From contig CM073194.1 of the NCBI GenBank assembly GCA_037042915.1, positions 1,550,001 to 1,614,000 of the forward strand: a DNA stretch of 64,000 bases, given 5' to 3'. The position numbers were made by a program, and so were the translations under genes. Under the pieces are notes generated by a model. The model saw nothing but the letters and a program-made list of their open reading frames with translations. It made no database searches and was not told where the DNA came from. The first letter of the stretch is position 1, and each line of letters opens with the position of its first letter. Below are positions 17,233 through 40,065 of the stretch, one piece after another. Origin of the DNA: Auricularia sp. M13. Taxonomy: Eukaryota > Basidiomycota > Agaricomycetes > Auriculariales > Auriculariaceae.

Positions 17233-18739
17233 ATGACACGTCCATATTATACGACGGAAAGCCTGCTTCACATCCCACATGCTGGCTATTGCGCTTCGTA
17301 GGTAAAACAAAAATTATGGACCTCCTTCATCCGGATTGACAGCTCGTCGTAGGGATTTGGTTTTCCAGACAGGAGCCATTGTCGTCAATGACAAGGAGAA
17401 GGTTTTACTAGTCGAAGACCCCATCAGTCACATCATCGGACTGCCTCGTTCCTACGTGCCATATCGCCTCGACGATCTCCTCCAAGCTCCATTAGCATTT
17501 TTGACTGAGGTAGCACTCTTGCTCTAAATATACATACTGACTTACGTACGCCTTTATTCAGATTGGATATGAAGTTGACCCCTTACCCCTGCGAATACCT
17601 ACAAGACGTCCAAAGGATCCTAAGGACATCCATGGACGGGAACGGCCCGAACTTGCATTTGCGGAGACTGCCACCACCAATTCGTTCTCTATCGCATTGG
17701 ACGTCGCCTATCTCGACGAGTCGAATCTTCCGCGGCTTGCAGACGTCCGGCAATCGGTTGTCTTGTGGCACGGCGGAATTCTGCGCGGACGGTTGGCGAC
17801 AAAGGCGCCGCGACCTCGCGCGCGCTTCTATCGCATTCCTGAAGCGATTTTCCTCATAGAAAGCCAACCTCTCCCCGATTGCGTGGCCATTGAAGCGCTG
17901 CGTTTGTTCCAGAAAGTCTTTAAGGCTAGTCAACCCATCCCACGTGAACCCGGCGCTGTTGCCCTGAAAGCACGGCCCAATGCATCACACGAACGCCACC
18001 CAAAGGATGCGCAATGCTACCCCGCTTCCACGATACAAAACGCCATTTTCCCCGTCGCGACACCGAATACAAGCGCTATTGTTGCCAACGCATTCTGGGC
18101 ATCAGCGTCAGTCTGGCCGTCACTGTTCATTATTTTCTGGCTTTCGTTGACTGACTTAGCAGGGATTATATTGTGATGACTGGCACTGTGATATTCGACG
18201 CACAAAAAGATGTGGTCCTCTTAGCTCCTGGCCGTTGGTCTGACGACCCCTTGAGCCTACCACGCCGAGCGGCTGACAATATCTGCGAACTTTTGTGTAA
18301 TCCACTGCCTGATATGGAGCCGAAGGTACGCTTCCATTTGCGCCTGCCTGGCTGCAGCTGTTGATTCAGATAGGCTCAGTGCTCGCGACTTGCCCTCCCT
18401 CGCATGTCGAAAAAATACACAAATGTGGACAACTGCGAGGATCCCGCGGCGGAAACTGTGTTGGAATTCGAGACCACGACCAACCCATTCTTCGTCACAT
18501 TCGGCACCTGGTGGCAGCACAGGGAGAAGACGATCGCCAAGGCGAACGGTCGCCAGGAAATAACGTTTTGGTTTGCGGGATCCTTCGACGCTTCGCAGGG
18601 GATACCGCAAGGCTTTGTGGCATTGCAATTTCCACAGGCTCTCACGCATCTCGAAGATAATGACCCCTACGCCTTCGCAGCTCTAACCCTCTTCCGCGAG
18701 CTATGGGATGCGGCCAAGAATGATGTGGTGGAGCCGTGA
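17233..18739 (+). CDS. Paralog A: tandem degenerate-Nudix protein, intact
   Basis: Five exons: 17233-17297, 17353-17509, 17562-18106, 18163-18325 and 18380-18739; all GT-AG, 429 aa, no break. The leader MTRPYYTTESLLHIPHAGYC is shared with the other copies. Half 1 has FQTGAIVVNDKEKVLLVED, GLPRSYVPYRLDDLLQAPLA, TEIGYEVDPLPLRIPTRR and VLWHGG. Half 2 has MTGTVIFDAQKDVVLLAPG, LPRR, CSRLALPRMSKKY, FFVTFGTWW and ITFWFAGSFDAS. The order strand / LP turn / helix / TG / PLP / WWYxG matches the Nudix fold, but the catalytic glutamates of the Nudix box are mostly gone. No signal peptide or membrane segment. Function unknown; a ligand-binding pseudoenzyme is my inference. Confidence 0.8.
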
Positions 18740-18935
18740 CAATCTGAAACTCTCATTCGTTATCTCGCTTTGCTGTCTTACCATCGTGCTATCACTGCTG
18801 TCCACGTACTCAGGCTGTGTATCAATTGCAATTATAGTTCGTCGACATGTATCGAAGGAAATTAAGCAAGAATAGCGGCGGCGGCAGGAGTTTGTGGAGC
18901 ACACGTCGCGCTCACTCCGGGCGTCGTCGGTCAAC

Positions 18936-19190
18936 ATGAAGCGCACCGAAGACGCGCTCACCGTGCTCATCACTCAGATTACTGATAAACAAGGCGTAGT
19001 CCACCGCCGGAACGTCGAGATCGCCCACAATGCCGGTCTTCACGACGAGGCCGCCGCGGCGCGAGAGCTTGTGATTATTGTAACTTGGCTGACGTTTGGC
19101 TTCCCTTGCTCGAGTACAAGGAGGAGTTCGGGAACGTACTGAAGGGCGTCAATTTGCAATTACAAGAGTCCTATTACACTGGCAGTAAAT
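18936..19190 (+). pseudogene. Fragment of the SART3/Prp24 gene 5' end
   Basis: Starts at an ATG and reads MKRTEDALTVLITQITDKQG, then VEIAHNAGLHDEAAAAREL. It is clearly the N-terminus of the intact minus-strand gene at 24852, whose start reads MASTEDTLTALSELITQITA. It diverges, loses frame after about 50 codons and ends near 19190. It sits directly after the 3' end of paralog A, the same relative order (paralog 3' end facing the SART3 5' end) as at paralogs B and D. Confidence 0.8.
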
Positions 19191-19220
19191 AATTCAAAGC
19201 CCAATGGCATGAGGAATGAG

Positions 19221-19639: not shown

Positions 19640-19824
19640 GGAATGAGTGCCCTTAGGTAGTTACGCCGTACCTCAATCGTGGAACTGCGCCTCCGAGGAG
19701 CGTTTACCGACGCACGAATAAGCTATGTGCGCCATGATGTCGGATTTCAGCAGACTAGATATCCTCGGAAGTTCGTGATGCACCTGGATGGCATGAGACT
19801 ATGCAAACCTTGGACGCAGGGAGC

Positions 19825-20893: not shown

Positions 20894-23800
20894 TCAGAGA
20901 CCCAACATCTTTCTGAAATCGTCCTGACCCTTCCCGCCACCCTCATTTTTCTCCGCTGCAGCAGAAGAGCCCAACGATGCCGAAGAAGCGGACGAATCTT
21001 TAGAGACGATGCCCGCCCCAGCACTGACTGCTGTTGCGCCGCCTCGCTTTTTACTACCAATTCCAGCGCGTGGGCGCGAGGCGACCCCGCGCGGAATAAA
21101 AGGCGCGGAGGACGACGCGGTGGTAGCGGGTGCGGTGGCAGTCTTCTGCGCCTGGACCAGGAGCTATAATTGACTCCTCACCGATGGTCAGCTCATGGCC
21201 CTGGAAAACGAATGGCGCAGTCGTTGTCTTCAGTATAAGCTTGCCAACAGCCTGTCAAAATCGTCAGACCAACGAGTGGTTAATCGCAGGAGGAAGACAT
21301 ACGGCCTGTGATTCCAGTTCAACAACGGCTTCGTTGACGTCTTCGAAGAGCTCGACGCGTTTCACGCCCTCGAATTCGCTCTCCAGCGCTTGCTGGAGCA
21401 ATCCCTCCTGAGTGCCAGCAGGGAGCCCGCGAACGCGCACAGATCGACTCTTCAAGTTCGACTTCCTGCCTAAACCAGTCGCGTCGTGTCTGAGTCGGAG
21501 CGTCAGAAAATTCAGACCAAGTTGCGCTATCAGCGGTCGACTCACTTGTGCTTCGCCTTGACGCGTGGATCCGCAAGCGTGACTGCAATTCGACGGTTCT
21601 TCAGCTCGAAGTTGTTGGCGCTCAAAGCAGAATGTGCAGAACGCTACAGCGGACATCTATCAGCATCGATACAGCCTGCAGCGATCCCAACCACTCACCG
21701 GTTCTTCAAATTCCACGAAAGCAAAGCCTTTGCAATGCCCGTTGTCGTCCAGAGAGACGCGGATATCCTTTATGGGCCCGAACTGTCGAGCGTATGAGGA
21801 CTTGGATATTCAGACAGACACAGAAACCAGACCAACCTGCTGGAACAGCGTCTGCAGATCCTCGCGCTTAGTGAAGCGACTCAAGCCCGCAACAAACAGC
21901 TCGCGCTCGTTGGCATCGGCGTCCGTGCGGTCTTTCTTCCGCGTCGGGTCGCTCATCAGCACGCTCAGCTTCATGCCGGGTTCAAGTTCGCGGCCATGAA
22001 GACTCAACGACGCTTCAGCTGCCGCCTTCGCCTGTCATGAACAAACTGCTCAACGACGATGACGATGTATGGGCGTACCGGGCTGGTGAACTGTACGTAG
22101 CAGAAGCGCCTGGTGCTCTTGAACTTCTTGCTGGGCCACCGCACGTCCAGGATCACGCCGAACTGGCCAAACAGGTCGCGCATGGCGGCATCGTCCGTGC
22201 GCTCCGGGAAGTTCGTAACGTAAAGCGTCGACTTCCAGCCGACATGCACGGCGACCTCGCGCCCGTCGATGCGCTTTTTATCGCGCGTCAACGCGGCCGG
22301 AACACTGTCCTAAAGCCGTAACACCATGAGTATTCCAACGAGCAACGAAGCAGTAAAGAGGCTTACCCTCGACATGAACTCCACAGAGGCAACAGGCCCG
22401 CTCGCCAGCTGCGTGATCTTGACCTCCCGGATGGCGCCGCAGTCTTTGAACAGCTTCTTCAGCGCGTCTTCGCTGACATCTTTGGGCAAGTCCGCCACAA
22501 GCACCGTCGAGTTCTCGCGGTCGCGTTTGAGAACAGAGTCGTCTATCACAAAGCGTCAGCGGGAACGACGAAGCAGGCACTGCGCCACATCGCACCAATC
22601 TTGACGCGTTTCGCAGCCTCGCCCTCGTCACGGGCCGACGCGTCGTCGTCGTCCGCCTTGCGCTTCTTGCTCGCCTGCGGCGGCTCGTCGACCTGCATGG
22701 CGTCCTGCACATCAGCGACAGGCGGCTTGCTGCGCGTAGGCCGCCTGGTAAGCTTCTGCTTCCTTCGCACCAGACCATCAGTCAATGCGCCCATATGCAG
22801 TCAAGCCGTCGCACACGCACCTTCGCGCGCTTGAGCAGCAGCTTCTCGTTCAGCGCGGCGACGCGGCCGACGCAGTCGTCGACGTCGTCCGCGGCGCCGT
22901 GCAGGTGCTCGAACGCGAGCCACGCCTCCCACAGCATCTCGGGCCAGTCGAGGTTCTTCGCGGACACGTCGCGGAAGACCGAGCGCGCTTTCGACGCGTC
23001 CGACTTGCTGCGACGCGATGCGAGTCAGCGTGGGTCGCAATGAAATGTTTGTTTGAATGGACACACGCGAGGAGCTGTAGGTATTCATTCCAGGCAAGAT
23101 ACGACGTCTTGAAGAACTTGGCCGTCGCCTCCCACATCTCGAGCGCTCGTTCGGATTCGTCCATATCGTCGTACTGCGCGGCAGTCAGCTTGTTGCAGAG
23201 GTGTTCGTGAGGGTATGCGTACAATTGCCGCAAGGTATTTCTCCAACCGAAGACGCGAGTCGCCGCTGGCGTTCGCTGCGAAGAAATGAGCTTGAGGTGC
23301 GGAGATGCGAAAGCTGCCCACCACTTCGCACGAGCTCAATACCGCCCTCAAGCGTCTGAACCAGCCTCTCGGCCGCGCCGCCCTCATCATCGTCATCTTG
23401 TGCCGACGACGCCGCACTGCGGCGCTCGTAATCCGCGCGGGCCAGGACGAGCGGGACGATATCGTCCACGCTGTCCTGGACGACGCCCATGCCCAGCGCG
23501 CGCCCAAACGCCTCCCCGACGGTCTCCTTGGGGCCCTCGACGCCGGCATGGCGCTCCAGCGCGCGCAGATACGCCGCCCACGCGTCGCCGCACGCAGGCA
23601 CGCTGCGCGTGCTGCGGTACAGCGCCGCGAGCTCCCTGCGCGGCTCGCCCGTCTTGTCCGTGCGCAGGAACGCGGCATACGACGCCCAGAAGGCGCGCAG
23701 CCGCTGCTCCGCGCCGTGCTCGCCGCGCCACACGCGCTGCCAGCCTCGGCGAGCGCGCGCTCGTGCAGCGTGCGCAGGAGCGTGCGCGCGATCTGCTCGT

Positions 23801-24852
23801 CCTGCGGGTTCCGCGCGGGCGCCTTGCGGCCTTTGCGCGCGGGCTCGGGTCTGCTGGCTTGGTGCAGACGCTGCTTGTCTTCGGAGAGGTATGTTGCGTA
23901 GGCTTCCAGCGAGTTTGAGGCATTCCGCTGTATCAGAAGTGTCAGTTGCGATAGGATTATGAAAAAAAGTTCTACCAAAGCGATTTCGGACGTTTCGCGC
24001 GCATTCCACGCTTTCACTGCGCTGACGCGCGCTTTGGTGACGGCTATCATGAGCTTCTCGTAGTCTTCGGCTGGTCTGTGAGTCGAGTTGAACGACGAAT
24101 ACGCTTGTGACGTCTCTTCAAACGCTACGGTAGAGTTAGCGTGAACTAAACAATGTTCGGAAGTCAGCGTACCTGCATGAGGAGTTTGCAGCCTGGCCAG
24201 GAACAACTTGTCGATGCGCTCGACTTGGGCTTCGCGCTCGGACGCGTCCAGGGTTTCGAGCTGCTGCATCTCCCATTCGCAGAGCTTGTTCCATACTTGT
24301 GTCCCTGGTAACACCTGGTCAAGCGTCTTTCATCACGCAGTATGTCAAACGCACCTCTGTGAGGTGCCATGCACCGCGCTCGACGATGGCGGTCAACGCG
24401 TCGCGCGTGACCGTGACCTCGTCTACGTCCTCGCCGTCCTCGCCGCCAGCACCGAGAGCAAATAGGTCCTGGTGGTCGATGACAAACTGCATGTGTCTGA
24501 GCAGCAGTGGGACGCCTGGAATATATACTGAATGAGCTGGACTCTCTGGGCGAACACAACGCGTACTCAGGTAGTCCTGCTCTGCGCGCTGGTACATCTC
24601 GTGCACCTCCTTGACGCCGTCGAGCGTGTCCCCGAGCTCCTTCTCCTTGTGCTCGAGCAACGGGAGCCAGACGTCGGGGGGCGCGGCCATGACCATGACC
24701 ATAAGCTCGCGCGCCGCGGCCGCCTCGTCGAGCAGCCCGGCGTTGTGGGCGAGCTCGACGTTCTGGCGGTGAAGCTCGACCGCGCCCTGCTTGGCCGTTA
24801 TCTGCGTGATGAGCTCGGAGAGCGCGGTGAGCGTGTCTTCGGTGCTCGCCAT
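20894..24852 (-). CDS. SART3/Prp24-like U4/U6 snRNP assembly factor
   Basis: A multi-exon gene starting at ATG 24852 (MASTEDTLTALSELITQITA) and ending at TGA 20894. The N-terminal two thirds (about 24850-22800) are helical HAT (half-a-TPR) repeats, for example EVHEMYQRAEQDYL and LWEAWLAFEHLHG. RRMs follow: STVLVADLPKDVSEDALKKL, STLYVTNFPERTDDAAMRDL, RELFVAGLSRFTKREDLQTL with GFAFVEFEEP, and a divergent RSVRVRGLPAGTQ. The C-terminus ends DDFRKMLGL, matching the conserved Lsm2-8-binding tail of Prp24/SART3. Known role: reannealing U4 and U6 RNAs after splicing, in the nucleus. About a dozen short introns; I did not fix every boundary. Its 5' end was copied into fragments at 18936 and 35600. Confidence 0.88.
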
Positions 24853-26556
24853 GTTGGCGGGAGAGACTCAGAGCTGAGCGCGGTGTCAACTCCGCCCTTG
24901 ACTTGTCCAACGACGCCAGCCACGCCGTCGCGTCCGGCGCTAAGCCTGATCATCATCGCCACCCAGCGCGTTGTCGTGTTCTCAACTCGCTTGCATGCCT
25001 GTCCGATGCCCGTGTATGCGCTCGAAGTCTCTGCCCCGATCACTGGCGTTCATAGCACGCTGCCTGGCAATTAATGGCGCAGAGAAATGCTGCGAGCTTG
25101 ACGATGCTCAGAACTCCAACCAACTCCAGTGGACGTTCGAGCACGTCAAGCCGCCCATAGGACCGCATCCCAGCCACGCCCAACAGCCCGTCTTGCAATG
25201 ATCGCCCGTGAACTGTAGCCAGACTCGGCGCCAACGCTCGTCCGTCCGTTCTCCGCGTTTCCCAGCTCTTTTCTACTCTCCAGGCTATAACTGTTACCAA
25301 TCGCGCTGGCGTGTGAGTCTTTTAACACGCTGAAGCCGAGCTGCCTGGTCAACACTTGCTCCCGCCAACCATCGCGCTCATGGTCTCCTGTGCACCAGTG
25401 GCGCGTGTTCTACTAAAGACATGTCACTCGGGCGCTCAGAAATCACCCGACTCCTCCCGCGCAGCATGCCCAGCGTCGGCATGGACGCCCCAGACGTGAT
25501 CTGCACAGTCCAGGGCAATTGAGCAGCACCGCAGGCGGTTCATTCGCTCCCCCGCCATCCCAAGCTCATTTTCACGCTCTAGGTCACACTCCTCGTCACC
25601 AACGATTGATCAAGAGCCACCCGAAGCGTGGTGGGGCGCGAGCTCACGCCGCTCGCAGTACGTTCGCCATGCGCATTCACGAACGCCCGGCTGCCTGCGA
25701 CCCACCGATGTCAGGCGAATTTTACTATCAGAGTCGCTCACCGGATGTGTACGCTCCCGGGAGCACCGACGGTGCTCACGCTTCCCCGCGTTTCTGAGCT
25801 CATTTTATCACGCGAGCCTATCGCGTCAACGAGGTGCCAAATGCGAGATTGCGCGCTCCGTGAGACCCGCACGACCACCGACACCACTGGCACTCACGAT
25901 CTTGAGCAGGCAGCCGGCAGCCATTTCAGCGCGCGCGCACAACGTCCTGAAAGGCCATGCGGTGGTTCAAGAGCGCAGGATCGGCCCTCGTCGAGGCAGC
26001 GGGTCGGCCCTCGCGGACGTGAACGGCTCAATCTCGTCCGGACGGCAGAAACGCTTGAAGGCCTAAATACCGGCGATTTGACGTGCGCGTGGGCTCGTGC
26101 AGGCTCGATAAGCAGTGGAAAACGCGTACAGCTTGGTAGTTTGAAGCAAAAAATGGATTTTGCACCTCCACCCGCGCTACGCACCGTCTGAATGAGTTTC
26201 CCTGTGCCGGAATAAGGAGTACCAACAATGTACAAATACAGAGCCGCCAGCGACATCGTTTCGTTGCGTGAGTTTTTCTTCATAAGATAGCAAATAATCA
26301 CTCATAATACGGCGACCCATCGAGCGCGGCGTTCGGCGGCGGGTGAACTGCAATACGGGCTGCGGTGACGCGCCTGTCAATCCCCGAAGTTGGTCAACTG
26401 CAATGTTCAAACTCTCGTCCGATGTTGAATTTCGCAGCGTCTAAAATGTTCACAGCCATTTGCAGCGCAATTTGTTTATCAGGTATCAAGCTTCAAGGAC
26501 AGCGATATCGAAAGCAGGATGTCGAGATGTGGCATACAGTTACAGTAATGTGTGTT
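24853..26556. other. Intergenic, with duplicated segment
   Basis: Promoter of the SART3-like gene, then 3' flank of paralog B. Bases about 24890-25110 recur, diverged, at 35980-36160, and 26500-26550 recurs at 36165-36235. No gene is supported. Confidence 0.55.
25855..26215. repeat. Segmental duplicate, copy 1 (without MITE)
   Basis: Matches 28435-28590 plus 29206-29405, at about 80-90 per cent by eye, for example CTCGATAAGCAGTGGAAAAC, and a tail CTACGCACCGTCTGAATGAG. The second copy is split by a mariner-type MITE that is absent here. A third, shorter relative (about 38343-38405) lies 3' of paralog E. Confidence 0.7.
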
Positions 26557-28292
26557 TCACGAATCAGACGAGTCGGACTTCGGGCCATTCATCATGGCAC
26601 GCCAAAGCAGGTTAAATAGCTTCAGCGCGTTCCGCGCGTAATGGTCTTTCCCTTCGAGCATCTCCATGGCCTCCGATATCGGCACGGCTCTACCCTTGCC
26701 CAGCGGCGCGGACGAGTCGAAGCTGCCTGCGTACCAGTACGTTATGGCCTGTCGACCTTGCGAGTCCTCCTCCGTTTTGGCCACGAGATCCCACCACGTA
26801 TGAAACGTGACAAGGAAAGGGTCCGTCGTCCTGGTAGCCCACGCCCTCGCCTCCGACCGAGGCGTATCTTGACCTGGGACAGCGATATATTTCTTCCAGA
26901 TGCGGGGGAGAGCCAGGCGTGTGCTCTGCGTGCATTGTCAACAGCGAAAACATATTGTAGAGCGTGAACACACCGCGATCTTGACACAGCTGAAAGGGTC
27001 CAATAGTAACTTGTTCGGGTCTTTATCGCCGTTGTCCCGAGAGCTACGAGGAAACGTCATGACCTCAGGCAAAAAGCTCATGGCCTCATGCGAGAAGACC
27101 GTGCCCGGTTCGACGTATACGCAGCCAGTCCGTTTGTCAAACAGAACGACACCGGTCCTAACGATGTAATCCCTGCAATGGAGTCAACATAGACCGCGGT
27201 TGGTTTGAGCTACCAGCGAGAGCACACTTACGCGGCGGGCCAAAATGCGTAGCAGATGGTCGGTGTCGAATTGGGCGTTGCAACTGGAAATACGGGACGA
27301 TAAACCATCGCGGGTGTATAAAAATCAGAATCTTCTGGGCGTCGTTCTAACTGTTGAGCTGCACTGCCGTTGTCGCCCGCTGACAGTTGCCGGAGCTCCA
27401 AGGGCAGGTCTTTCGTGGCCGCCAAGATCTTCTTGAAGAAACGCAGGACTTCGACGGCGACAACGTCGTACAGGTCCTGGTTCTGAATCAACTCCACCGC
27501 ATCGTCTACGGAGAGAAAGTGCACGGCGCAATAAGCGCCGGTCGGTTCCGCTGCTGGCTGACGACCAGCGCGCAGTATCCCGCCATACCACCACACGATT
27601 GACTGACGACCGTCGTGGACACCAGGCAGATTGGAGGCTGGGAGGTAGCCAATGTCGACAGCAATCGAGAACGGCGCCGTGGTGACAGTGTCGCTAAACG
27701 TGAGTTCTGGTGCTGGCCAGCCCTCTTCCTCAGGATTCTCAGCACGATACCGCCTCGTAGGCTCGCAGAGCGGCAAACGATCGATCACATAGCCGGTCTA
27801 GAAGTAGTAAGAATCAATAAACCCGGAGTGGACATAAAAAAACTGCATGGACCTCGACTAGGTAGCCCAGCGGTGACCGCAGTAGATCGTCCAAGCAAGA
27901 AGGGACACGAGAACGAGGCAGCCCAATCACGTGAGTGAAAGAGTCTTCGACGAGGAGCACTTCATCCTTGTCGTTGATAATGATACACACCCTGCACCCA
28001 ATCCTTCTCAATCCATTTTCGGTGGCACAAAAGAGGTGGAAAATGCTTTGGATGGATTTTCCCCCTGTTTTTGAAGCCTTTTCCCTGTTTTTAGCATTTT
28101 CCACTTCTTTTGTGCCACGGAAAATGACTTGATAAGGATTGGCTGCAGGGTGTGATAGCGCCTGTTTGGAAGACTAGATCACTTGGAGAAGGTCAGTCAC
28201 TCAACAGACTACGGGAAGGCCACATGCGAAACACAATAAATGCCATGCGACATAAGGCGCGAGCTAAACTCTGTAAGGTACGGCAAGGCCAT
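26557..28292 (-). pseudogene. Paralog B: tandem degenerate-Nudix gene interrupted by a MITE
   Basis: Exons 28292-28228, 28181-27853, 27797-27232, 27172-26974 and 26925-26557. Without the 169-bp insert and its 3-bp duplication, exon 2 is 157 nt, exactly as in A, C, D and E, and the protein would be 451 aa. The leader is MALPYLTEFSSRLMSHGIYC. Half 1: GLPRSRVPSCLDDLLRSPLG, TGYVIDRLPLCEPTRRY and IVWWYGGILRAG. Half 2: VRTGVVLFDKRTGCVYVE, STRLALPRIWKKY, FHTWWDLVAK and ITYWYAGSFDSS. Intron 1 has a GC donor (GCATGT) where D and E have GTATGT. The insert shifts the frame. An ATG inside the MITE reopens the frame from 28104, so a shortened protein with a transposon-derived N-terminus is possible. Confidence 0.75.
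27986..28154. mobile_element. Foldback MITE in exon 2 of paralog B (169 bp)
   Basis: The two ends are inverted repeats of about 60 bp with a few mismatches (outer CACACCCTGCACCCAATCCT; inner GTGGCACAAAAGAGGTGGAA). The whole element is nearly a hairpin with a T-rich centre. It is flanked by ATA at 27983-27985 and 28155-28157, read as a 3-bp target duplication. Comparison with four uninterrupted paralogs proves the insertion and its exact size. The superfamily is uncertain; 3-bp duplications suggest PIF/Harbinger-like. Confidence 0.85.
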
Positions 28293-28434: not shown

Positions 28435-29405
28435 ATGCGATATTGCAGGCTCCGTGCTGAGACTCGCACGGCCGCCGACCACAATGACACTCACGAGTCC
28501 GCCCGCAAGCCATTCCAGCGCGCGCAAAGCGCCTCCGAACAGACATGCGGCGCGTCGAGCAGCGGTTCACGTCCTACGGCCTTCGGCTGACCTACAGCCG
28601 TTTGCCTAAGTTCGTGGACACCCGTCGATTTTTTCAGGGCCCGGTCCGAGCCGGAAACCCCGACTCCGACGCTTCCGAACGAACGCTGGGCTCAGAGCAG
28701 GCGCTCTTTGAGGCTACAGCACGAGTGTATAGGCCCATTTTAGGCATAATACACGCATTGTGAGCTTGTGGTATCGATTTTAAGCGTTTAGAAGACATTC
28801 TGAGCGAGTTAGTGCCACGGCCCCAGATCCTCCGGGAACACTTCACCACTTTTACCATCCGCAAGCTATCTTTCAACACCGGATTCTCATCCTTATCCAT
28901 AGAAAACGATTTTAGGTTCGCTGCGCGCAGTTAAAGCAAGCACAGCGCTCATATAGTGCTCGGAGTCTGGGAACGGCCCCAACGCCGCTGGCGGCCTAGT
29001 AAAAGACATAGACACAATTATTTTGACGTAATCCCACTGTTATAACATGCCATAACCTCTTAGAAGGCCTCTGAGGTGCGGGCAGCGCTCAAAGAGCGGT
29101 CGAGAGCGCCGTGGGCAGCGGGACAACGTTCGGGGTCGGGGTTTCCGGCTCGGACCGGGCCCCGAAAAAAATCGGCGGGTGTCCACGAACTTAGGCAAAC
29201 GGCTGTAAACCACCCAATCTCGTCCGGACGGCAGCAACGCTTGCAGGCCTACATAACGGCGATTTGACGTGCGCATGGGCTCATGCAGGCTCGATAAGCA
29301 GTGGAAAACGCGTACGTACCCGTCTTGGTAGTTCAAAGCAATAAACGGATTTTGCACCTGCACCCCCGCTACGCACCGTCTGAATGAGTTTCCCCGTGCC
29401 GGAAT
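28435..29405. repeat. Segmental duplicate, copy 2 (split by a MITE)
   Basis: The two halves, 28435-28590 and 29206-29405, correspond to 25855-26215. The mariner-type MITE at 28595-29205 lies between them. The promoter region of paralog B (28230-28330) also resembles that of paralog D (37720-37850). Confidence 0.65.
28595..29205. mobile_element. Tc1/mariner-type MITE (611 bp)
   Basis: Inverted repeats of about 80 bp with some mismatches begin CAGCCGTTTGCCTAAGTTCG at 28595 and end with the complement at 29205. TA flanks both sides (28593-28594, 29206-29207). It has no transposase frame and is unrelated in sequence to the MITE at 8113. Confidence 0.85.
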
Positions 29406-29618
29406 ATCAGCGTCGACAATATGTATCAGGATGAAGGCTAAACTGTGAAAAGTGACGTGTGCTGTCGATTGACTACGTTCCAGGATGGCGAGCGACGTCA
29501 CCGGTCGTGGCCCCCGCCACCGAGATGTGCGGCGACGAACCCCTCCTAATTTGAACGGCGAACGAATGATGTACTGTCAGTAGGTATTTATTTGCGGATG
29601 CACGAGTCATTTGGTGCG

Positions 29619-29935
29619 CATGGTAAACCGATGATGCCGGTTACGGCCCTACGGGGTCTTCAACGAGAATTACATGAGCTTTATGGTTGAGCATAACGGC
29701 AGCCATTCGAAAGACAAGGTCACTGCGAGACCGTCAACGGATGGCAGAGCAACGAACGATGAGACATACGAGGTACATTGTGCAGCCTGGTATATGTGGT
29801 AAGAGCTTTCGCTCCCTGCTGTATAACACGGGCGCTTCATATCCTCGCCGAGCTAGGAACCATGACGTTCGCGACGTCGTGCAAAGGAGAGATCGAGCCG
29901 CTTGCCGAACGATATTGAGCGAGTTATAACTTAAG
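29619..29935 (-). pseudogene. Truncated sixth copy: 5' end of an E-like paralog
   Basis: Very similar to 39853-40160 (paralog E). It keeps the leader exon (MKRPCYTAGSESSYHIYQAA), the GTATGT intron and the first part of exon 2, then breaks off at about 29619 before the LPRS turn. It sits just downstream of paralog C in the same orientation. It is the product of an incomplete duplication and cannot make the full protein. Confidence 0.8.
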
Positions 29936-29985: not shown

Positions 29986-31565
29986 TTACGATGCATCCTC
30001 AGGATCATCCTTACATGCATCCCACATATCAAGAATCCAGATCAGCGCAGCCGACGCGTATGGATCCTTCTCGAGCCGCGACGGAGCATCCGCCACAGGC
30101 ACCACGATACAGTACTCAACCAACCCAAGGAACCTTTGTACATCATTGAAATTGCGAGGAGTGCGCCATAATGCCACTTTCCCCATCTTGTCCTCTGCCA
30201 TATAAATACCATCATCAGTGATGATTATGCCCCACAGGCTGCGAGGCGTCGAACCGTCCGCTATACCAAAACGTTATAGCCTGCCGTCCCCGAGATTGTT
30301 GAATATATGTGCCTCGGAAGTCCCAAGTGGTGTTCAGTGTCACGAGAAACGGGTCCGTCGTCTTGTCCATGAGCATGTCGGATTGCGCCCGAGGCTCCTC
30401 CTCGCCTTCGACCCAGTTGTATATCTTTGTCATCCGGGGGAGCGGTAGACGGTCGCACTGGGAATGCGACATGTCGCTTAAGAGACTAATGGGGCCACCG
30501 AGAGGGACACGACGCACTGCAGTATTCGCGCATGCCAGCGGGTTTTGTAAAAGAGTTCCCATCTCGGTGTCATCGCTGGTTCCTCGAGGAAAGGTTGCTA
30601 TTCCGGACTCGGCATCCTCGATGAGGAGCACACAGTTGCGCACTGTGTCAAAAAGAACGGCCCCCGTCTTGACCAAAATGTCTCTAGTTATCGATCAGCG
30701 TCTTAGTATTAACCCGAAAGTACGGCTTACGGTGTCGCCCAGAATGCAAAGTTCACGATATCATGCGTGCTCGATGTCTTGAGGACATACAAAGGGTCGG
30801 ACATCATCGAGGCAGGATAGCAGGCAATATCATTCGCGTGTCGCGTCCAGGTCGACGGCCGCGGGCCCTTCGCAATTTGCTGCAGGTTAAAGTTCGGCAG
30901 CGCTCGGGTTGCGGTCCAAATCTCCTTGAAAAGGCGCAGAGCAAACACGCCGACAGCATCCGCCGCTGGCGGCTGGTTGCCGATGAAGTAGATCGCCTTG
31001 TCGATCGGTACGAAGTGCACGAATGCTCGTTTCACTTCCGGGATATCCGCGAGCCGGGTGTGGGTGACGCCACTATACCACCAGACGATGGACTGGCGGC
31101 TATCCGCGATGTGTGCCATATTCGAAGCAGCAATGAATATGATGTCGAACGCGATGGCGAATGGGGCAGTGGTTAATTGTTCGTCGAAGGCCAGTTCGGG
31201 TCGTGGGTCCGGCTGGGTCTCAGGGGAGTCTTTATATCGCCGTTTGGTCGTACAGAGTGGTAAACGGTCGACAACGCAACCGGTCTGATATTCCGTCAAG
31301 CTGAAGATAGCCGGATACAAGGTGAAACTTGCCTCTTCCAAAAACCCAAGTGGATCCTTCAGCAAATCGTCCAGACAGTGTGGGGCGTACGAGCGGGGGA
31401 GCCCAATAATGCGTGATACGGGATCTTCGACCAAGAGTACATCGCCGTCGCCGTTCAACACGATAGCCCCTGTTTGATAGACTAGGTCGCTAAGGATAAT
31501 GTCAGATTTATGTTGGCAGAACTTGATTCAATATACGCAGTATTATATCCAGCGTGCGGTATGTG
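29986..31565 (-). pseudogene. Paralog C: tandem degenerate-Nudix gene, split by a hAT element
   Basis: Exon 1 is divided: 35526-35491 on the far side of the hAT element and 31565-31537 here; together they give 65 nt, the same as in A, B and D. Then 31489-31333, 31284-30731, 30683-30518 and a last exon 30457-30236 plus 30114-29986. Half 1: YQTGAIVLNGDGDVLLVED, GLPRSYAPHCLDDLLKDPLG, EETGCVVDRLPLC and IVWWYSGV. Half 2: VKTGAVLFDTVRNCVLL, FPRGTSDD, CDRLPLPRMTKIY, ITFWYSGRFDAS. Intron 2 has a GC donor (GCAAGT). The last exon holds a 121-nt retroelement-derived stretch. C keeps the EETG of the Nudix box best. It probably makes no normal mRNA while the hAT copy is present. Confidence 0.75.
30115..30235 (-). 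mobile_element. Ty3/Gypsy retrotransposon fossil fragment inside paralog C
   Basis: About 40 codons resembling the C-terminal end of a Gypsy reverse transcriptase (the W-x-TPRN and DVQRFLGL signatures). Only this fragment is present, with no LTRs and no other domains, so it is a short broken fossil. It begins with GT and ends with AG on the gene's strand and lies in phase 0 of the host exon, so it could be removed as an intron. Age not determinable; the host copies A, B, D and E lack it. Confidence 0.7.
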
Positions 31566-31573
31566 ATACTTGC

Positions 31574-34500
31574 TAGGGATGAGAACGGATGACAGTATCC
31601 GCGGATAAGTATCCGCGTTCTGCGGAACGGGTAGTATCCGATCTGTACATAATCTACCCGGATAATCTGTCGTTGTCTACACGTTCGGATACCAGATCAG
31701 GTGGTGTGCGCTGGTGTATCCGCAGATACCATACATCCTGCAATTGATCATCCAGCATGACTCGAACCTTATTCTGGCCTACAAAAGCGACCGGGATCAT
31801 CCGGAAAAATTTTGTGACTCTCTGCACCAGCACCGAACGTAGTGCAGTGCCGTGCAACCATGCACCTTGCCTCCCTCTGGGTTTTTGTAATCTTTATTCT
31901 CGTCGGCCCTGTCATTGGCCTACTCATCAAAGCTCGTCGACGTAAACGCGCCTTGTTTCTACTCGGACGTAATAGTCGGACACGGCCGCGACAGCATCCG
32001 CCAAGATCCAGAAAGCCGACTCGGGCTCGCCGGCTACTCATTGTCCAGCGCGTCCGACACAGTGTGCCGATTGCCACAGAACGTATCCAAAGTACGTCAC
32101 AAGGACATTGGCCTTCCTTGACGCTTATTTCATCCACAGAATCTTTCCAGACGCTCTATATCCGAGGCTGCCATGCACAGCCGTGGAAGATCGGTGCGTG
32201 CGTGTGCCAATGCTATCTTGTGATTCACTAACTCCTTCACGCTTCGCAGTCGTGGGCACAGATGCATCTGTGGCCGAGGTGCTGTATGAGGTCCAACGTC
32301 GATACGGTGTCCCGGCTGCCGACGGCGTGCTCTTCAAGTCATCGCGATATGCGCCGCTCCACCCTGCTGAATCCATTTCATCGCTACGTCTCGACGATCT
32401 GTCTATCCTAGTCTGGAGTCCACGCCTCCGCGGTGGAGCCTCAGTATCAGATACTTTGGCGGCTACACCATCTACTGCTAACACGGGAGAGGAGTCGACG
32501 CCGGCGCCTGAGGAGTCTGATGGACACGATTCGGACGGTCAGCCTCAGGCCAAGAGGCGTCGCACGACCATTCGGGCAAAGGGCTTGAATGCTAAATCGG
32601 ATTCTGACGTATGGGACAACGCTGACGAAGAGATCATCAGTGCGTACTCAGACAAGCTTATGGTCTTGATGTGAGCTCACTTTGGACTTGCAGAGGATGC
32701 TGTTGAGTCTTGGCGGTCAACTGTTTACGACCACTATCATATCTCGATCAAGCGGGAGGAGAAGGGCAGCAAACGGACAATGTACTACGTATTAACCTGC
32801 AAGACGCACCCTGAAACCCATGAGAAGCAACTGCGCGCTCGTGAAGGTTTTGCTGCAAAGGGCACGGGCAACTTCCGGAAGACGGCAAAGGCTTGCGATG
32901 AGCGTCACGGGGCTTCAACGAAGGCAAAGCAGCTCACAATCGAGGAAACCAGGTCGACCTACACGCGGGCGCGCCACCGCGCAATTCTTGCGCTACGCAC
33001 CGCCGTCTCGAGTCGACCGTTCAATGCCCTAGAGGACAAGTACTACAAGCTCGAGGTCGACCTGCTGCGACCTGGGACAATCATACCACACCGTACGACA
33101 ACCTCGACCGACGTCAAGTTCCTGCATGACAAGATCCGCGGCAGCTTGGTGACATATTTTAAAGTCAGTGCCATTCAGGGCATCACTGCATTGAGGTGCT
33201 CACCTTCTACAGAACTACACCGGCGCTGTACACGTCGTTATTGATGGCTGGACAGCGCCAAATGTTGCGTCGTACCTCGGCATTATCCTCGTTTGGTGGG
33301 AACAGAAGATCAATCGCTCGATCCTCGAGTTTGAACAGTGAGTACGCGCCTGATTGTCGAGCGGCTTCCTCAGACCTCCTCAGTATCACCGAGTCGCACA
33401 CAGGCGAGCACCTTGCAGAGTGCCTGGCAAAGTGCTTGAATGAGTATCATATCAAGCCGTTCACCATCTGCGCCGACAATGCGACGAACAATGACAAGTT
33501 GGTGCGCATCCTGCCCAGCCACATCCCCGAGTTCGGCGGCATGAAGCGACGCATCCGCTGCTTCGCGCACATCATTAACCTCATGGCCAAGGTGAGTTGA
33601 CTCCGGGGATTGCTAGGTCTTGTACTCACAAATGTAGACGTATATTTCGCTCTTCTTTGAGAAACCCAAGAAGAAGCGCGGTGTCGTGAAAGTGCAGGTC
33701 GGCAGCAAGCGTACCAGAGCATATGCGGAGGAAGAAGAGGAGTTCGACACCGGCGAGGAGATCATCGAAGATCCTGACGGCATCTATTTGGGCGCGGAGG
33801 GTGACGACGACGTAGACGAAGCCAAGGAGGCCCACGACATCGTCGCCATCACAAAGGCTGCCGGTGCCGCCTACGCCAGAGCCGCTGAGCTGGGCATCTC
33901 TGTTACCAATGACCAAAAGACAACCGCACTCCAGCTTTTCCCCAAGGTGCGTGAACAAGAGTGAGCTGCTGGCAATGCCATCTAACAGAGCTTCCAGGTC
34001 GCCGGGCTAGTGCGGCGGGTACACGATGCACCGGTCCTGGCAAAGCGCTTTAAAGAGCATGTCGAAGCAGATAAGGACCTCTGCGCGAAGACTAAAAAGC
34101 GCGCACTAGACCGTCGTGTTCCAACCCGCTGGAATTCGGACTTTGTTTGCCTTGGCGCTCACCTCCTCCTTCGCGGGCCGGTGAAGCTCTTGACGTCCGA
34201 ACCCGCATACGACTTGACAAAATACAAGCTCACCCCATCGCAGTGGACGCTTGCTGACGCGCTTCACAAGACGTTGCCAGTCAGTTTTCATTACTTGCTT
34301 GCCCAATCGCATTTGCTGATAGTGCGCGCCCAGCTCTTCGATGCCCCAACGAAGCTCTTCTCGCGAACCGAGTTACCGCTTGTACACGACGTCGTTCCAA
34401 TGATTGAGCACATGGAGCTCCAGCTGGAGCGCATCCGCGACGACAAGGAAAAGCCGCCAATCCTGCGCGTTGCCGCAATTGCGGCACTGGACGTTGTCGG

Positions 34501-35490
34501 CAAGTACTACGCACACACGGACGACACAGACATCTATCGCATCGCAATCAGTGAGTCAATGCAATGCCTTGGTTTCCTTGCTTACATAGTGTTAGTTATG
34601 TGCCCCAATCGCAAGCTCAAGTGGTTCGAAAAGACCTGGCTGCCAGCAGATATCGCCGAGGCGCGCCGCCTCGCGGTTGAACTCTTCAACACAAAATACA
34701 GGGGCAACAACGGCGCACCTGCCCCATCGGCTGTGTCTGCACGACCTGCGGTTGAACGGGTGAGTGCTGTTGCGATGCTGACGGTGCAGCATGCGCTGAC
34801 ATGTCCAGTCTGTGTATGCATACTGTGCGGATGAAGATGACTTGGCGCTCCCTGCGGACAAGGACACCATCGAGCACTACCTGGACTCGCCCGTTGTCTC
34901 GTATAGCGATGTACAGGCCTGCGGCGGGCAACTCAGCGGACATTGGGAACAACACCGCAAGTTCAGCCCTCGTGTTGCTCAAATGGCACTTGATGTCTTG
35001 AGTACACCAGGTGTGTGCTGACTCTTACCATCCTCCTTCCCACGTTCTGACGGTCTGCAGCTACCTCCGTCGATGTGGAGCGCTCGTTCTCGAACGGACG
35101 GATGCAGGTTGATCATCACCAGCATAACAAAAGTGCAGAAACATTCACGGCGCAGATGGCACTCGGTTCGTGGGACAACAGCCCATTCTGGCCTGGCATC
35201 GACTACTGCGCCGACCAGCTGGAGGAAATGAGTAACCGCAGTGCACCGAAGGGGTCCAAGTCGGGAAAGAGTGCAGGAACGTCCAAGACGTTCGCCATCC
35301 AGGTAGATTGAACTCGACATTGTTGTCGCTATCCTACATCCTGTGTACATACGTTATCCGCGGATTATCCGCAGATGTACACGGATAATCTGTGCTCCTC
35401 TACCCGTTCAGATACCAGATCAGCGAGATGGCGGTCTCCATCTGCAGATTCATCTGCGGATGATACCCGGATTACCCGTTCTCATCCCTA
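31574..35490 (+). mobile_element. hAT DNA transposon (3917 bp), apparently complete
   Basis: Ends TAGGGATGAGAACGG at 31574 and its inverted complement ending 35490; both sides carry the 8-bp duplication ATACTTGC (31566-31573 and 35491-35498). Subterminal regions hold many short repeats around ATCCGCGGAT and CGGATAATC on both sides, typical transposase-binding arrays. It contains one transposase gene with introns. The clean ends and duplication suggest a recent insertion, here into exon 1 of paralog C. Confidence 0.92.
31859..35311 (+). CDS. hAT transposase with N-terminal ubiquitin-like module
   Basis: Multi-exon gene inside the hAT element; the start is uncertain (ATG 31859 with an early intron is plausible). 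An early exon (about 32250-32440) looks like a ubiquitin-like beta-grasp segment and ends SPRLRGG at 32417-32437. Next is a BED-finger-like region around 32690-32890 (W, YDHYHISIK, CKTHPETH), then RNase-H-like parts: FTICADNATNNDKLV, RRIRCFAHIINLMAKV, VPTRWNSDF, and KLKWFEKTWLP. The C-terminal hATC dimerisation region is SVDVERSFSNGRMQVDHH and MALGSWDNSPFW. An acidic insert occurs at 33730-33840. I see no obvious stop breaking the exons, so the enzyme may be active. Confidence 0.8.
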
Positions 35491-35526
35491 ATACTTGCTA
35501 TACGAAATATAACAAGGGCGGGACAT
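35491..35526 (-). other. 5' piece of exon 1 of paralog C
   Basis: Start ATG at 35526; codes MSRPCYISYSKY up to the hAT target duplication. It is the missing beginning of paralog C, displaced 3.9 kb by the transposon; the following codons (HIPHAGYNTA) are at 31565-31537. Matches the leader MTRPYYTTESLLHIPHAGYC of paralog A. Confidence 0.8.
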
Positions 35527-35599
35527 CAGGAAAGTAGAGAGTTGCAGTCGTGGTTGTGGCACGCGGTTGAGAGCCTTCGGCCTTTCCCGCGGCCAAGCT

Positions 35600-36170
35600 C
35601 GGATCGATCATCGTCATACTGCGTGGAAGTCAGCTTGTTGCGGAGGCGCTCGCGAGTCGCCAGGGTACGCGTACGATTGCTGGCATTCTGCTGCGAAGAA
35701 ATGAGCTTGAGGCGCGGACATGCGAACGCTGCTCACCACGTCGGGGGGCGCGGCCATGACCATGACCATCCATAGCTCGCGCGCCTCGTCCAGCAGTCCG
35801 GCATTGTGGACGACCTCGACATTCTGCCAGCGGAGCTCGACTGCGCCTTACTTGACCGGTATCTACGTGATGAGCTCGACAGCGCCGTGAGCGACTCGTC
35901 TTCGGTGCTCGCCATGTCGGCAGGAGAGAGAAAGCTGAGCGCGGTCTGCAACTCCGCCTTTGCAGTTCTGTCCAGTCCAACGCCGTCGCGTCCGGCGCTG
36001 CCTGCTGCTCGCCGTCACCCAGCGCGTCGTTGTGCTGCCCAAATCGCCCGTTTACCACGCATACCTGCCCAAAGCCCGTGTATGCGCTCGAAGTTTCAGT
36101 CTCGCTCGCTGGCGCTTCGTAGTGCCCTCGCAATTAGCACAGAGACATGCTGCGAGCTCGAGGACGAGGA
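35600..36170 (-). pseudogene. Rearranged SART3/Prp24 fragment with its upstream flank
   Basis: 35740-35925 matches the first exon of the gene at 24852 (start region and the AAAREL-like stretch). 35600-35740 matches an internal part of the same gene (about 23160-23310), so the middle was deleted. 35930-36110 matches the promoter region 24860-25080. It lies directly 3' of paralog D, as the intact gene lies 3' of paralog B. Confidence 0.75.
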
Positions 36171-36224
36171 CAGCAATATCGAAAGCGCGATGTCGAGATG
36201 TGTTATACAGTTATGTGCGTTTTA

Positions 36225-37789
36225 TCAATCAGACACGTTGGACTCCGGGTCATCGTTCATGGCACGCAACATCTCGCCGAATAGATTCAGCGCGGTCCGC
36301 CCATAAGGATCTTGCCCTTTGAGCATCTCCAAGGCCTCCGATATCGGCACGGCAATACCATTGCCGAGCGGGGCAGACGAATCGAAACCGCCTGCGTACC
36401 AATATGTTATGGCCTGCCGGCCTCCCGATTCAGCGTCCGTTTTGCCAACAAAGTCCCACCATGTGTGGAATGTGACAAAGAATGGGTCCGACGTCCTTTC
36501 CGCCTTGGCCTGCGTCTCCACCCGTGGAATATCGGAACCCGGGACCTCGGTGTATTTCTTCCAGAGACGGGGAGGGCCAGACGAGTGCACTGCGAGTGAA
36601 AAAACTTTCAATATATGCTCGAGTAGCTTGGAAGCGACGGACCTTGACTTTAACATCGCTGAAAGGGTCCAACAGTAACGCGTTCAGATCATTGTCACCA
36701 TTATCCCGCGTGCTACGAGGAAGCGTGGTCATTTTGCGCGTCACGCTCAGATGCTCTGGAGAGAAAACGGTGCCCGGTGCGAGGTATACGCAGCCACGCC
36801 GTTTGTCGAACAGAACGGCGCCTGTCTGCACCTTGTAATCTCTATAGAGCAGTTAAAACCGCCGACCGCGTTCGGTGGGAGCGCACTCACGCGGCGGGCC
36901 AAATCGCGTAGCTGATGATCCTGGTTGTATTCTTTGTCGCAACCGGGAAAGTGGGACAGGTGATCATTGCCGGCGTGTAAAAATCTGAATCTTCTGGGTG
37001 GCGCACAAACTGTCGAGTCCATTTATCGTGGTCGCCCGAGCGTTGACGAAGTTCCGGGGGCAGGTTTTTGGTGGCCGCCCAGATCTTCTCGAATAGCCGC
37101 AGGATTGCGACGGCAACGACGTCGTATAACTTGTCCCTTTGGATCTCGTACACCGCATCGTCTAGCGGGAGAAAGTGCACGGCGCAATAATCGCCGGTCG
37201 GCTTCTGTGGTGGCGGACCACCAGCGCGTACCATCCCGCCATACCACCACAGGTTGGTCTGACGACCGTCCTCGAGATGAGGCAGGTTGGACGCGGGTAG
37301 GTATCCAATATCGAGTGCAATGGAGAATGGCGCCGTGGTGACATTGTCGCTGAAGGCGAGCTCTGGTGCTGGCCAGGTTGGGTCGTCTTCCGCTTCCTCA
37401 GGATTCTCGAAGCGATACCGCCTCGTAGGCTTGCACAGAGGTAAAGGATCAATCACATAGCCCGTCTAAAGAAGACGAAGAGTTTAGTGCTCAACCCATC
37501 AAAGCGACTCAATTGTACCTCGACTAGATAGCCCAGCGGTGACCGGAGTAGATCGTCAAGGGAGTGCGGGACACGAGAACGAGGCAGTCCGATGATATGA
37601 GTGTACGAATCTTCTACAAGGAGCACTTCATCCCTGTCGTTGATCACGACCGCGCCTGTCTGAAAAACGAGATCGCTTGAAACATGGTCAAAGTTGCTCT
37701 GCAGAGTGTTGGAACGCCACATACGATGCACAATATGCGGCGTGTCGAATGTGGCGCGAGCTGTCGTCTGTATGATACGGGGTGCTCAT
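36225..37789 (-). CDS. Paralog D: tandem degenerate-Nudix protein with a frameshift in the last exon
   Basis: Exons 37789-37725, 37675-37519, 37465-36891, 36841-36643 and 36589-36225, GT-AG. The leader is MSTPYHTDDSSRHIRHAAYC. Half 1: FQTGAVVINDRDEVLLVED, GLPRSRVPHSLDDLLRSPLG, ETGYVIDPLPLCKPTRRY, NLWWYGGM. Half 2: VQTGAVLFDKRRGCVYLAPG, LPRSTRDNG, FHTWWDFVGK, ITYWYAGGFDSS. The last exon is one base short: CTRLALP and RLWKKYTEVPG are in different frames across the CCCTCCCC run near 36567. Mutation or homopolymer assembly error cannot be told apart here. If intact, about 454 aa. Confidence 0.75.
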
Positions 37790-38573
37790 CGAACGTGGCA
37801 CTGGGCGTGGGGTGAATCGATGGGTGGAATGAGCCAAGTTCTGCGAGGTAGACTGAGAGTCATGGCACGGTTCGCTCCGAAGGAGGTTTCCGATCAATGT
37901 ATTTACGTTCCAAAGCGGAGGCAGTCCATCGGATGGGCCCACCAGCTCCGAATGTGCCTACCTACCTACCTTAGCACCTACTACAAATCGAGAGAACCAA
38001 CCTGCGACCAACACTATGAATCTCAGCATAGACTCGACTCCCCAACGACACACCTCTGGCGGAATTTCGTTCAACAGGAAGCAGTCTGATCTCAAGCCCC
38101 TCATTCAACAAGAGGTTGAAGGAGCTGTGACTATTCTCCGGTATCATGTCGATATTCACGTCTATGGCCGGCCTACTCGTTGAGATGAGTCCTCGAGTCG
38201 CGGCCCATGACTGAGTTCCTGCGCAAGTTCAGGCTGGAGCATTCAAGAGTACACAAGAGCCGCGGCGCAGCCTCAGGGTTTCGGGGCAAATAGTAAGAGT
38301 ACACGGGCTGGGAGGAGGATCCTGAGGAAAGCCGACATGCACCTCGACGGCAGAAATACTTGGAATTCAATACCCACGGCGGGTGGACGTGTGCGTGGGC
38401 TTGTGCAGTCGATTACTTCGAGTGTCAGACATGCATGGCATGCATCTGAAAGGCGGGCATCCAACAGAGTCGTAACAATCGATTGTTGTAGACGTTAGGT
38501 ACATGGAATAGCCTTTGGAAAGCAGGTAGAAAGCTTGACAGAACCAGAGCAGTGCGTGACTACGAGGCAGCCA
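37790..38573. other. Intergenic with (CTAC)n repeat
   Basis: 5' flank of paralog D, with CTACCTACCTACC at about 37957-37976, and 3' flank of paralog E, with a piece (38343-38405) related to the repeats at 26042 and 29227. No gene is supported. Confidence 0.5.
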
Positions 38574-40065
38574 TCACGCGTCATCGTCGCCCTTGACAGT
38601 GTCCCAGAGCTCGCTAAATAACGATAAAACCACCCAACCAAAAGGGTCCGTCGCTTTCAGTCCATCGATGGCCTGAGCCAATGGCACGGGAACACAGTCC
38701 GCCGGGGTCTCCAACGAGGCGTCGAAGGCCCCCGCATACCAAAACGTGATGCCCTGGTGGCCGCGAGAAGTCGCAACAGTCTTGAGATGGAGATCCCAAT
38801 GAGTCCTGAACGTGACGAAAAACGGGCCGGTCGTCTTCTTGAATTCCGCCCGCGTCTCCGCCTCTGGCACTTCGGAGCCGTCGACAAAGCGGTATTTCTT
38901 GGTCAGCCGAGGAAGTGGAAGACGTGTGCACTGAAAGCCCGTTCAACGAGAATACCGACTGTGCGGGGTCAAGTGGCTTACCGTTTTCAATACACCGCTC
39001 AGCGGTGACTGCAGCAACGAGCCGACATCGTTCCCGTCACATCGCGGAATGGTCGTCCGGTCAGACTTCAACAGAATTACACCCCGCTCCTTGTCGAAAA
39101 GAATGGCCCCTGTTTGAACAAAGAAGTCCCTGCGCTACAGTGAGAACGACACGAACGGTGTCTTCCAGGAGAGAAATGGCGCACGACGCTGCCCAGAAGG
39201 CATTGTTCACAATTTCCGAAGAGTTTGGCGTCGCGACGGGGAACATCGGATCCTCCATCATCCCAGCAGGATAGCACTCTATATCGTCCTCGTGTCGCAT
39301 GTGAGGGGCCCGGCGGCACACTTGCTTGTTTGAGAGCGCCGCCCGAACTTCTGTTGGCAAGCACTTAGTTGCCGCCCACAGCTTCTCAAAGAGACGCAAC
39401 GCCCGGACGCCGATGCTATCCTGAAGGGGCCGGTTATCGATCATATAGATCGCATCCTGAATAGGCAGAAAATGCACTAGGCCCGGAGACGGCGCACACG
39501 TTGGTATGCGACGGTTCACGAACCCAGCATACCACCAGACAATGGATTGGCGCCCATCTGCAAGCCGTGACATGTTTGAGAATGGAAGATAGGCCAGATC
39601 CAATGCAATAGCAAACGGAGTGGTGGCAACGTGCTCCGTGAATGCCAAATCTGGCCGCGGATCGTAACGCGCAGCATCGGGGTCTTTGTATCGGCGTATG
39701 GGCATGCAGAGCGGCAGCGGATCCACGTTCAGGCCAGTCTGTATACACATGTAAGTGACAATGCAGAACATCCAATAAAAAAGACCTGACCTCGTCCAGG
39801 AATGCAAGGGGCGCCGCGAGGAGATCGTCGAGCGAGTGCGGGACATGTGATCGTGGTAAACCGATAATGCCCGTTACGGGGTCTTCAACAAGCATTACAT
39901 GAGCTTTATGGTTGAGCACAACGGCAGCCGTCTGAAAGACAAGGTCGCTGCAACACCGTCAGCGGATGGCAGAGCAACGGACGACTGGACATACGAGGCA
40001 CAGTATGCAGACTGGCTTATGTGGTAAGAGCTTTCGCTCCCGGCTGTATAATAGGGGCGTGTCAT
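38574..40065 (-). CDS. Paralog E: tandem degenerate-Nudix protein, intact
   Basis: Exons 40065-39995, 39947-39791, 39738-39188, 39129-38982 and 38930-38574; all GT-AG, 427 aa, no break. The leader is MTRPYYTAGSESSYHISQSA. Half 1: FQTAAVVLNHKAHVMLVED, GLPRSHVPHSLDDLLAAPLA, DETGLNVDPLPLCMPIRRY and IVWWYAGF. Half 2: VQTGAILFDKERGVILL, IPRCDGNDVGSLLQSPL, CTRLPLPRLTKKYRF, FFVTFRTHWD, ITFWYAGAFDAS, then ELWDTVKGDDDA. In half 1 the turn-helix reads S-x5-L-x7-L-A-F-L-D-E-T-G-L, the exact Nudix-box spacing (G-x5-E-x7-R-E-U-x-E-E-x-G-U) with only D, E, G and the hydrophobics kept. Role unknown. Confidence 0.82.

Follow-up and report, generated by a model that had tools for sequence, protein, structure and literature searches.

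Clustered genes of an Auricularia genome that probably encode non-catalytic double Nudix proteins

Introduction

What kind of protein is made by five related genes, A through E, lying between positions 17233 and 40065 of a 64,000-nucleotide stretch of DNA (hereafter, the window) from the fungus Auricularia sp. M13? A preliminary description, drawn from the letters of the window, took them to be a five-copy family of tandem, degenerate Nudix proteins that turn over quickly and no longer act as enzymes, and that perhaps bind nucleotide-like ligands or serve as sensors of self/non-self or of stress. The Nudix box, GX5EX7REUXEEXGU, contains metal-binding glutamates, and the question is what might be left for a protein to do once the box is broken. 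We argue that the genes are members of a birth-and-death family whose double Nudix proteins are no longer catalytic and would instead bind some ligand or partner, a reading that is on balance probable and in which the binding leans on conservation and on analogy with known proteins.

The locus matters beyond itself in that a single genome holds a canonical relative, the intron history, and both broken and intact copies of an enzyme domain that was doubled and likely turned into a non-enzyme. It becomes possible to test in a fungus what inactive Nudix domains bind, and the family adds a case that Pfam does not recognize from single sequences. The window corresponds to C2:1550001-1614000 in a genome of 52.1 Mb in 14 contigs. 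Coordinates without a prefix are positions within the window, while those preceded by C2:, C3:, C5:, or C7: refer to contigs of the whole genome.

Results

All five genes were found where they had been placed, two of them open (A and E) and three broken (B, C, and D). Gene A (17233-18739, forward strand) is intact by its spliced translation, its splice sites, and its matches to the rest of the family. Its five exons, of 65, 157, 545, 163, and 360 nt (17233-17297, 17353-17509, 17562-18106, 18163-18325, and 18380-18739), are separated by GT-AG introns and make up an open frame of 429 amino acids. Half 1 of the protein comes from exons 2 and 3 and holds a degenerate Nudix domain (17354-17942), interrupted by an intron that follows the EE site of the box; half 2, from exons 4 and 5, holds a second (18164-18724), with introns at both aligned places. 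Gene E (38574-40065, reverse strand) is also intact, with the five-exon plan of A (exons 1 and 2 of 71 and 157 nt) and an open frame of 428 amino acids. B, C, and D follow the same plan, each broken in a different way. The preliminary description had given 65 or 71 nt for exon 1, as seen in A and E, and 157 nt for exon 2 in every copy, which is true of A and E but not of present-day B, where exon 2 carries an insert. Some of the motifs said to be shared also vary: E has QTAA for QTGA, and A has LWHGG for WWYxG.

The five genes are nonetheless one family, since the copies match each other far above chance (a self-comparison by blastn gave an expectation value, or E-value, of 0 for the pairs B/D, B/F, and D/F), and the family is larger than five. 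A tblastn search with the protein of gene E gave 33 exon matches at an E-value of 0.1 or less (best 2.7e-127), all on C2 and in two clusters. Cluster 1 consists of seven genes, A through G, plus a fragment resembling E. Genes F and G lie just outside the window; F (C2:1619385-1620982) appears intact, encoding 453 amino acids by its exon coordinates, and in G (C2:1621.2-1624.4 kb) exon 3 is split by an insert of 1.67 kb. Cluster 2, 2.9 Mb away on the same contig, consists of six further loci at C2:4446-4501 kb, for which the gene models are partial: I and L have two domains, J and K1 apparently one, K2 is apparently broken, and M is remote and fragmentary.

Is each half truly derived from a Nudix domain? 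Fifteen domain units were used in judging this: half 1 of A, C, D, E, F, I, and L; J and K1; and half 2 of A, B, E, F, I, and L. Half 1 of B, half 2 of C and of D, and all of G, K2, and M were left out. A profile of the 15 units, which contained no canonical member, matched seven sequences of the PDB at an E-value of 10 or less, and all seven are Nudix proteins: Ndx1 twice (0.0068 and 0.01), a Nudix hydrolase of Bacillus methanolicus in three entries, and twice Dcp2, which we take to be a Nudix protein. The genome itself has a canonical Nudix gene at C3:3637149, recognized by PF00293 with an E-value of 5.9e-10. When the family profile was aligned to it by hhalign, the two matched over 155 columns with a probability of 97.7, an E-value of 1.8e-12 (for one comparison), and a score of 78.3, as against 20.4 for the best of 100 shuffled controls and 16.8 for the reversed control. 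By hhalign and by the two PDB matches with E-values of at most 0.01, the family falls within the Nudix homology clan. Half 2 of copy L leads to the same gene: a genome-wide search with it found 15 places at an E-value of 0.1 or less, 14 of them in the two clusters and the fifteenth the gene at C3:3637149 (0.022). Sequence similarity also connects the second halves with the first, as between half 2 of A and half 1 of D (4.6e-5).

Predicted structures agree for half 1. Half 1 of C was modeled by AlphaFold with a predicted local distance difference test score (pLDDT) of 68 and a predicted template modeling score (pTM) of 0.68, and comparison of the model with the PDB by Foldseek gave 463 matches at an E-value of 10 or less, five of them at 0.001 or less (best 1.4e-4). 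The best 50 of the 463 all belong to the Nudix clan, the membership of some being our assumption, and half 1 is predicted to have the Nudix fold, which spans about 130 amino acids, albeit with low template modeling scores (TM-scores). For half 2 of E, 48 of the best 50 of 388 matches are Nudix proteins, MutY, or NadQ (the latter two presumably Nudix-like), the other two being chains of 3rh7, but this model, with a pLDDT of 57, is too weak to stand alone. The proposed degenerate Nudix origin is thus supported by the PDB profile, by hhalign, by the model of half 1, and by the search with L; for half 2 the support comes from homology to half 1, and weakly from its own model.

What is left of the Nudix box? 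Counted over the 15 units, the first G and the E of RE are retained in none, the R and the second E of EE in two each, the box E in three, the first E of EE in six, and the last G in ten; among the half 2 units, the last G is missing in five of six. Judged from these sequences, the catalytic core is broken in every unit, though some acidic residues persist, in keeping with the pseudoenzyme that had been proposed. Since the E of RE is gone in every domain examined, and other box residues in most, there is strong reason to infer that the proteins do not carry out the usual metal-dependent hydrolysis of nucleoside diphosphates. Other positions have become fixed in the family where the single canonical gene used for comparison has a different residue: R/K67, Q116, and an aromatic residue at 102 in all 15 units and P46 in 14. 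R/K68 is conserved in 13. At many of the conserved positions the residue (P, G, L, F, or W) suggests a structural role, and among columns conserved in at least 13 of the 15 units, no new acidic residue appears near the box.

The introns tell how two domains came to be in one protein. In the canonical gene at C3:3637149, one intron, in phase 2, immediately precedes the first D of the domain, and another, in phase 0, directly follows the EE of the box. Both recur in half 1 of A and of E, at the same place and in the same phase, and half 2 has introns at the aligned places, so exons 2-3 and exons 4-5 look like two copies of an ancestral two-exon module. Copy I deviates, in that its first domain is continuous, without the first intron. 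In a phylogenetic tree, a single branch (support 90/93, present in all 200 bootstrap trees) separates the first domains from the second domains of both clusters, and the doubling must therefore predate the split between the clusters. The matching halves, the introns, and the tree together uphold the claim that the two-domain form came about by internal duplication. J (C2:4459.3 kb) and K1 (C2:4466.9 kb), degenerate Nudix members with apparently a single domain, are possibly survivors of the state before the doubling, but long branches leave their positions in the tree unsure, and that of the canonical gene as well, so that either the loss of the box or the doubling of the domain could have come first.

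Are the domains still under selection? Of the 21 possible pairs in cluster 1, six could be used to estimate the ratio of nonsynonymous to synonymous substitution rates (dN/dS); the other 15 were set aside, 12 because they were saturated and three because dS exceeded 2. The ratios are 0.26 (D-G), 0.33 (B-D), 0.31 (B-F), 0.36 (B-G), 0.25 (D-F), and 0.23 (F-G), with upper 95% bounds of at most 0.48 and a highest bootstrap value, in any of the six pairs, of 0.53. Taken separately, half 1 gives 0.20-0.29 and half 2 gives 0.20-0.45. A broken box within a domain kept by selection is the mark of a pseudo-Nudix protein, and this is what is found, the selection being seen in B, D, F, and G. The combination of low dN/dS and newly fixed positions is what would be expected, from the sequences, if the protein had exchanged its function for another instead of giving it up.

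The family gains and loses copies, in line with the turnover that had been proposed, and the ways in which this happens can be read from the locus. On the side of gain, D and G are inverted duplicates, 88-93% identical, and the fragment resembling E (29621-29921, reverse strand), comprising the upstream region, exon 1, and part of exon 2, is 83% identical to 39854-40154. Pieces of a neighboring gene have traveled along. One, a fragment from the 5' part of a SART3-like gene, lies beside A (18907-19152, forward strand, 72%), and others lie beside D (35610-36164, reverse strand, 76-89%); such passengers of duplication (70-89% overall) imply that segments spread carrying part of a neighbor. The SART3-like gene itself is at about 23085-24852, and its protein, pieced together by hand, matches SART3 in the PDB weakly (E-value 0.0078).

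On the side of loss, gene B (26557-28292, reverse strand) has its exon 2 broken up by an inverted-repeat element of 169 bp (27986-28154), the remaining exons being open. The element belongs to a dispersed repeat family of this genome, with near full-length copies (167-169 of its 169 bases, 91-95%) at three further sites and more distant relatives elsewhere. B lies between the two copies, 89% identical, of a direct repeat some 190 bp long (26029-26214 and 29215-29406). Gene C (29986-31573, reverse strand) retains exons 2 through 5 and the end of exon 1, with a GC in place of GT as the donor of exon 2. The first part of its exon 1 (35491-35526, reverse strand) is stranded on the far side of a 3917-bp insert that splits the exon. 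This insert, a hAT-like transposon (31574-35490), has terminal repeats whose first 15 bases are identical and an 8-bp target duplication, ATACTTGC; these features underlie the assignment to hAT, along with sequence motifs that we assume to be characteristic. The open reading frames tried from the transposon received no name from Pfam. Copies of it at C2:3132431 (99%) and C5:28768 (95%), found with a query of 1791 of its 3917 bases, indicate that its family moved recently. Exon 5 of C has an insert of about 120 bp (about 30120-30240) that occurs once in the genome by DNA search and has no match in Pfam; by a putative motif it bears some resemblance to a reverse-transcriptase fragment. Gene D (36225-37789, reverse strand), open through exons 1 to 4, is frameshifted where exon 5 begins. 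New copies evidently come from segmental duplication, and copies are lost to transposon insertions and frameshifts.

Discussion

How might such a family have come about? A Nudix gene related to the one at C3:3637149 probably gave rise to a paralog. This paralog lost its catalytic core, and its two-exon domain was doubled within the gene to give a single chain with two putative Nudix folds; the gene also multiplied into two clusters on one contig. The proteins most likely work as binders, a ligand or partner being held by the cleft or by the newly conserved RRY/KKY, the invariant Q, and the aromatic residue that replaces T, and the tandem form would act as a built-in dimer. The ligand might bear phosphate, or the partner might be a protein, as is thought for the inactive Nudix domains of TRPM2 or KRIT1. 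One may go further and suppose that these are fungal double pseudo-Nudix receptors in a single chain, in which a new R/K-R/K-Y, Q, and aromatic site for a phosphate-bearing signal took the place of the catalytic site, and that birth and death diversified a lineage-specific form of sensing. This version, which draws on the conserved positions, we offer quite tentatively.

The canonical gene is the nearest point of comparison. The family shares with it the same domain over 155 columns, the two introns in place and phase, TT-x-x-F, W-Y, and the C-terminal helix region. The canonical gene differs in having the Nudix box and a single domain, whereas most family members carry two domains and none an intact box.

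Pseudo-Nudix proteins are already known. In human TRPM2, a channel that ADP-ribose activates, the NUDT9-H region is a Nudix domain that carries a mutated box and is inactive (PMC6461439). Compared by description only, it resembles the family in having a broken box in a Nudix domain and differs in being joined to an ion channel. The pseudo-Nudix domain of KRIT1 has a Nudix fold, apparently no hydrolase activity, and a presumed role in binding partners (PMC7729028), but it is one domain in a human adaptor with ankyrin and FERM domains. DBC1/CCAR2 (PF14443) contains a Nudix homology domain that is not catalytic and for which binding of NAD metabolites has been predicted (PMC5389931). It is, however, a large nuclear protein, and neither A, E, nor any of the 15 units matches PF14443. 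Bacterial NrtR, with its DNA-binding domain, is also unlike the fungal family. NrtR regulators are Nudix-related transcription factors (PMC6800001), and the Nudix domain of one, with ADP-ribose (3gz8), stands 44th among the listed structural matches to half 1. Finally, seven proteins with two Nudix domains occur in a set that gave 347 Nudix domains (PMC5389931); they are not said there to be degenerate, and the word fungi was not found in the main text of that paper. No description of a fungal, doubled, clustered pseudo-Nudix family was found among the titles and beginnings of abstracts listed by searches of the open-licence literature. Among the listed papers, those that speak of pseudo-Nudix domains concern cerebral cavernous malformations, and one devoted to a mycovirus of the mushroom Lentinula edodes uses the word Nudix ten times (PMC3365873).

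Several observations weigh against the idea of non-catalytic double Nudix binders. The check with the Pfam NUDIX profile that had been suggested for A and E was negative: the whole proteins matched no Pfam family, PF14443 included. PF00293 was matched at an E-value of 10 or less by none of the 15 degenerate units, the one match among the 16 sequences scanned being the canonical gene (one degenerate unit matched DUF7759, at 0.06). Five of the seven PDB matches to the profile have E-values of 0.44-1.5. A search with copy J gave 11 places, the gene at C3:3637149 not among them, and when that gene was itself the query, a cluster member came up no better than at an E-value of 0.99, behind two other weak places. 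Alignment by hhalign with five divergent Nudix domains was negative (probability 2.4). The check by predicted structure, which placed half 1 in the Nudix clan, did less for half 2: the model of E was weak, and its 388 matches at an E-value of 10 or less included none at 0.001 or less. Even for half 1, the TM-scores from Foldseek, normalized to the query, are only 0.30-0.47, with large root-mean-square deviations, and four of the five AlphaFold models are poor, with pLDDT of 42-45. The estimates of dN/dS are limited to B, D, F, and G, since A, C, and E are saturated or have dS above 2; the six pairs share branches, and of those four genes only F is intact today. The first E of EE remains in six of the 15 domains and the box E in three. 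Lastly, that these would be built-in dimers which bind a ligand or a partner is a proposal drawn from analogy and conservation.

The alternative that fares best overlaps with our own reading. The double fold could serve as a scaffold for protein interactions, an adaptor with no small ligand, as in the precedent of KRIT1 (PMC7729028), and the structural look of many conserved positions would suit it. R/K67 (15 of 15 units), R/K68 (13 of 15), and Q116, however, are candidate contacts for a ligand, and we regard a pure scaffold as possible but the lesser prospect.

Could the proteins still be enzymes, by way of other residues of a remodeled Nudix cleft? In favor of this, both halves of B, D, F, and G are under selection, the first E of EE is kept in six of 15 domains, and the Nudix clan includes other classes of enzyme, such as isomerases and glycosylases (PMC5389931). 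But the E of RE and the first G are both lost in all 15, the last G of the box is lost in five of six half 2 units, and no new acidic residue near the box is strongly conserved, in columns with at least 13 of 15. We think a surviving enzyme unlikely.

Slightly less likely still is a recognition or drive locus, where turnover would reflect conflict (self/non-self recognition or spore killing) and the making of variants would outweigh any fixed ligand. The birth and death of copies in clusters is what one would look for in such a case. However, pairwise dN/dS gives no sign of positive selection (as values for whole pairs, not for sites), and the clusters are on C2, while matches to the STE3 receptor (PF02076) are on C7 and the single homeodomain match to PF05920 is on C3. 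Linkage to mating type, searched for with PF02076 and PF05920 only, was not found.

That the family is decaying, without function and carried by duplication, would fit the four broken genes among the seven of cluster 1, and the one fragment. It is nevertheless very improbable, given that dN/dS is 0.23-0.36 (highest bootstrap 0.53 over the six pairs) and A, E, and F are open over their full lengths of 429, 428, and 453 amino acids.

Beyond the clusters, relatives of one stretch of 128 amino acids from exon 3 of E were sought among viral contigs, where there were none, and among contigs of bacterial and archaeal genomes, where 23 matches to a pattern yielded no confirmed relative. Within the window, a long open reading frame at 47947-49215 has no Pfam match at an E-value of 1 or less; it contains what we take to be a SWIM-like pattern, C-x-C...C-x-H, and is perhaps a transposase of the MULE (Mutator-like element) type. 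Just upstream of A, at 15994-16737, lies a gene for a glutathione S-transferase (PF22041, E-value 3.9e-41).

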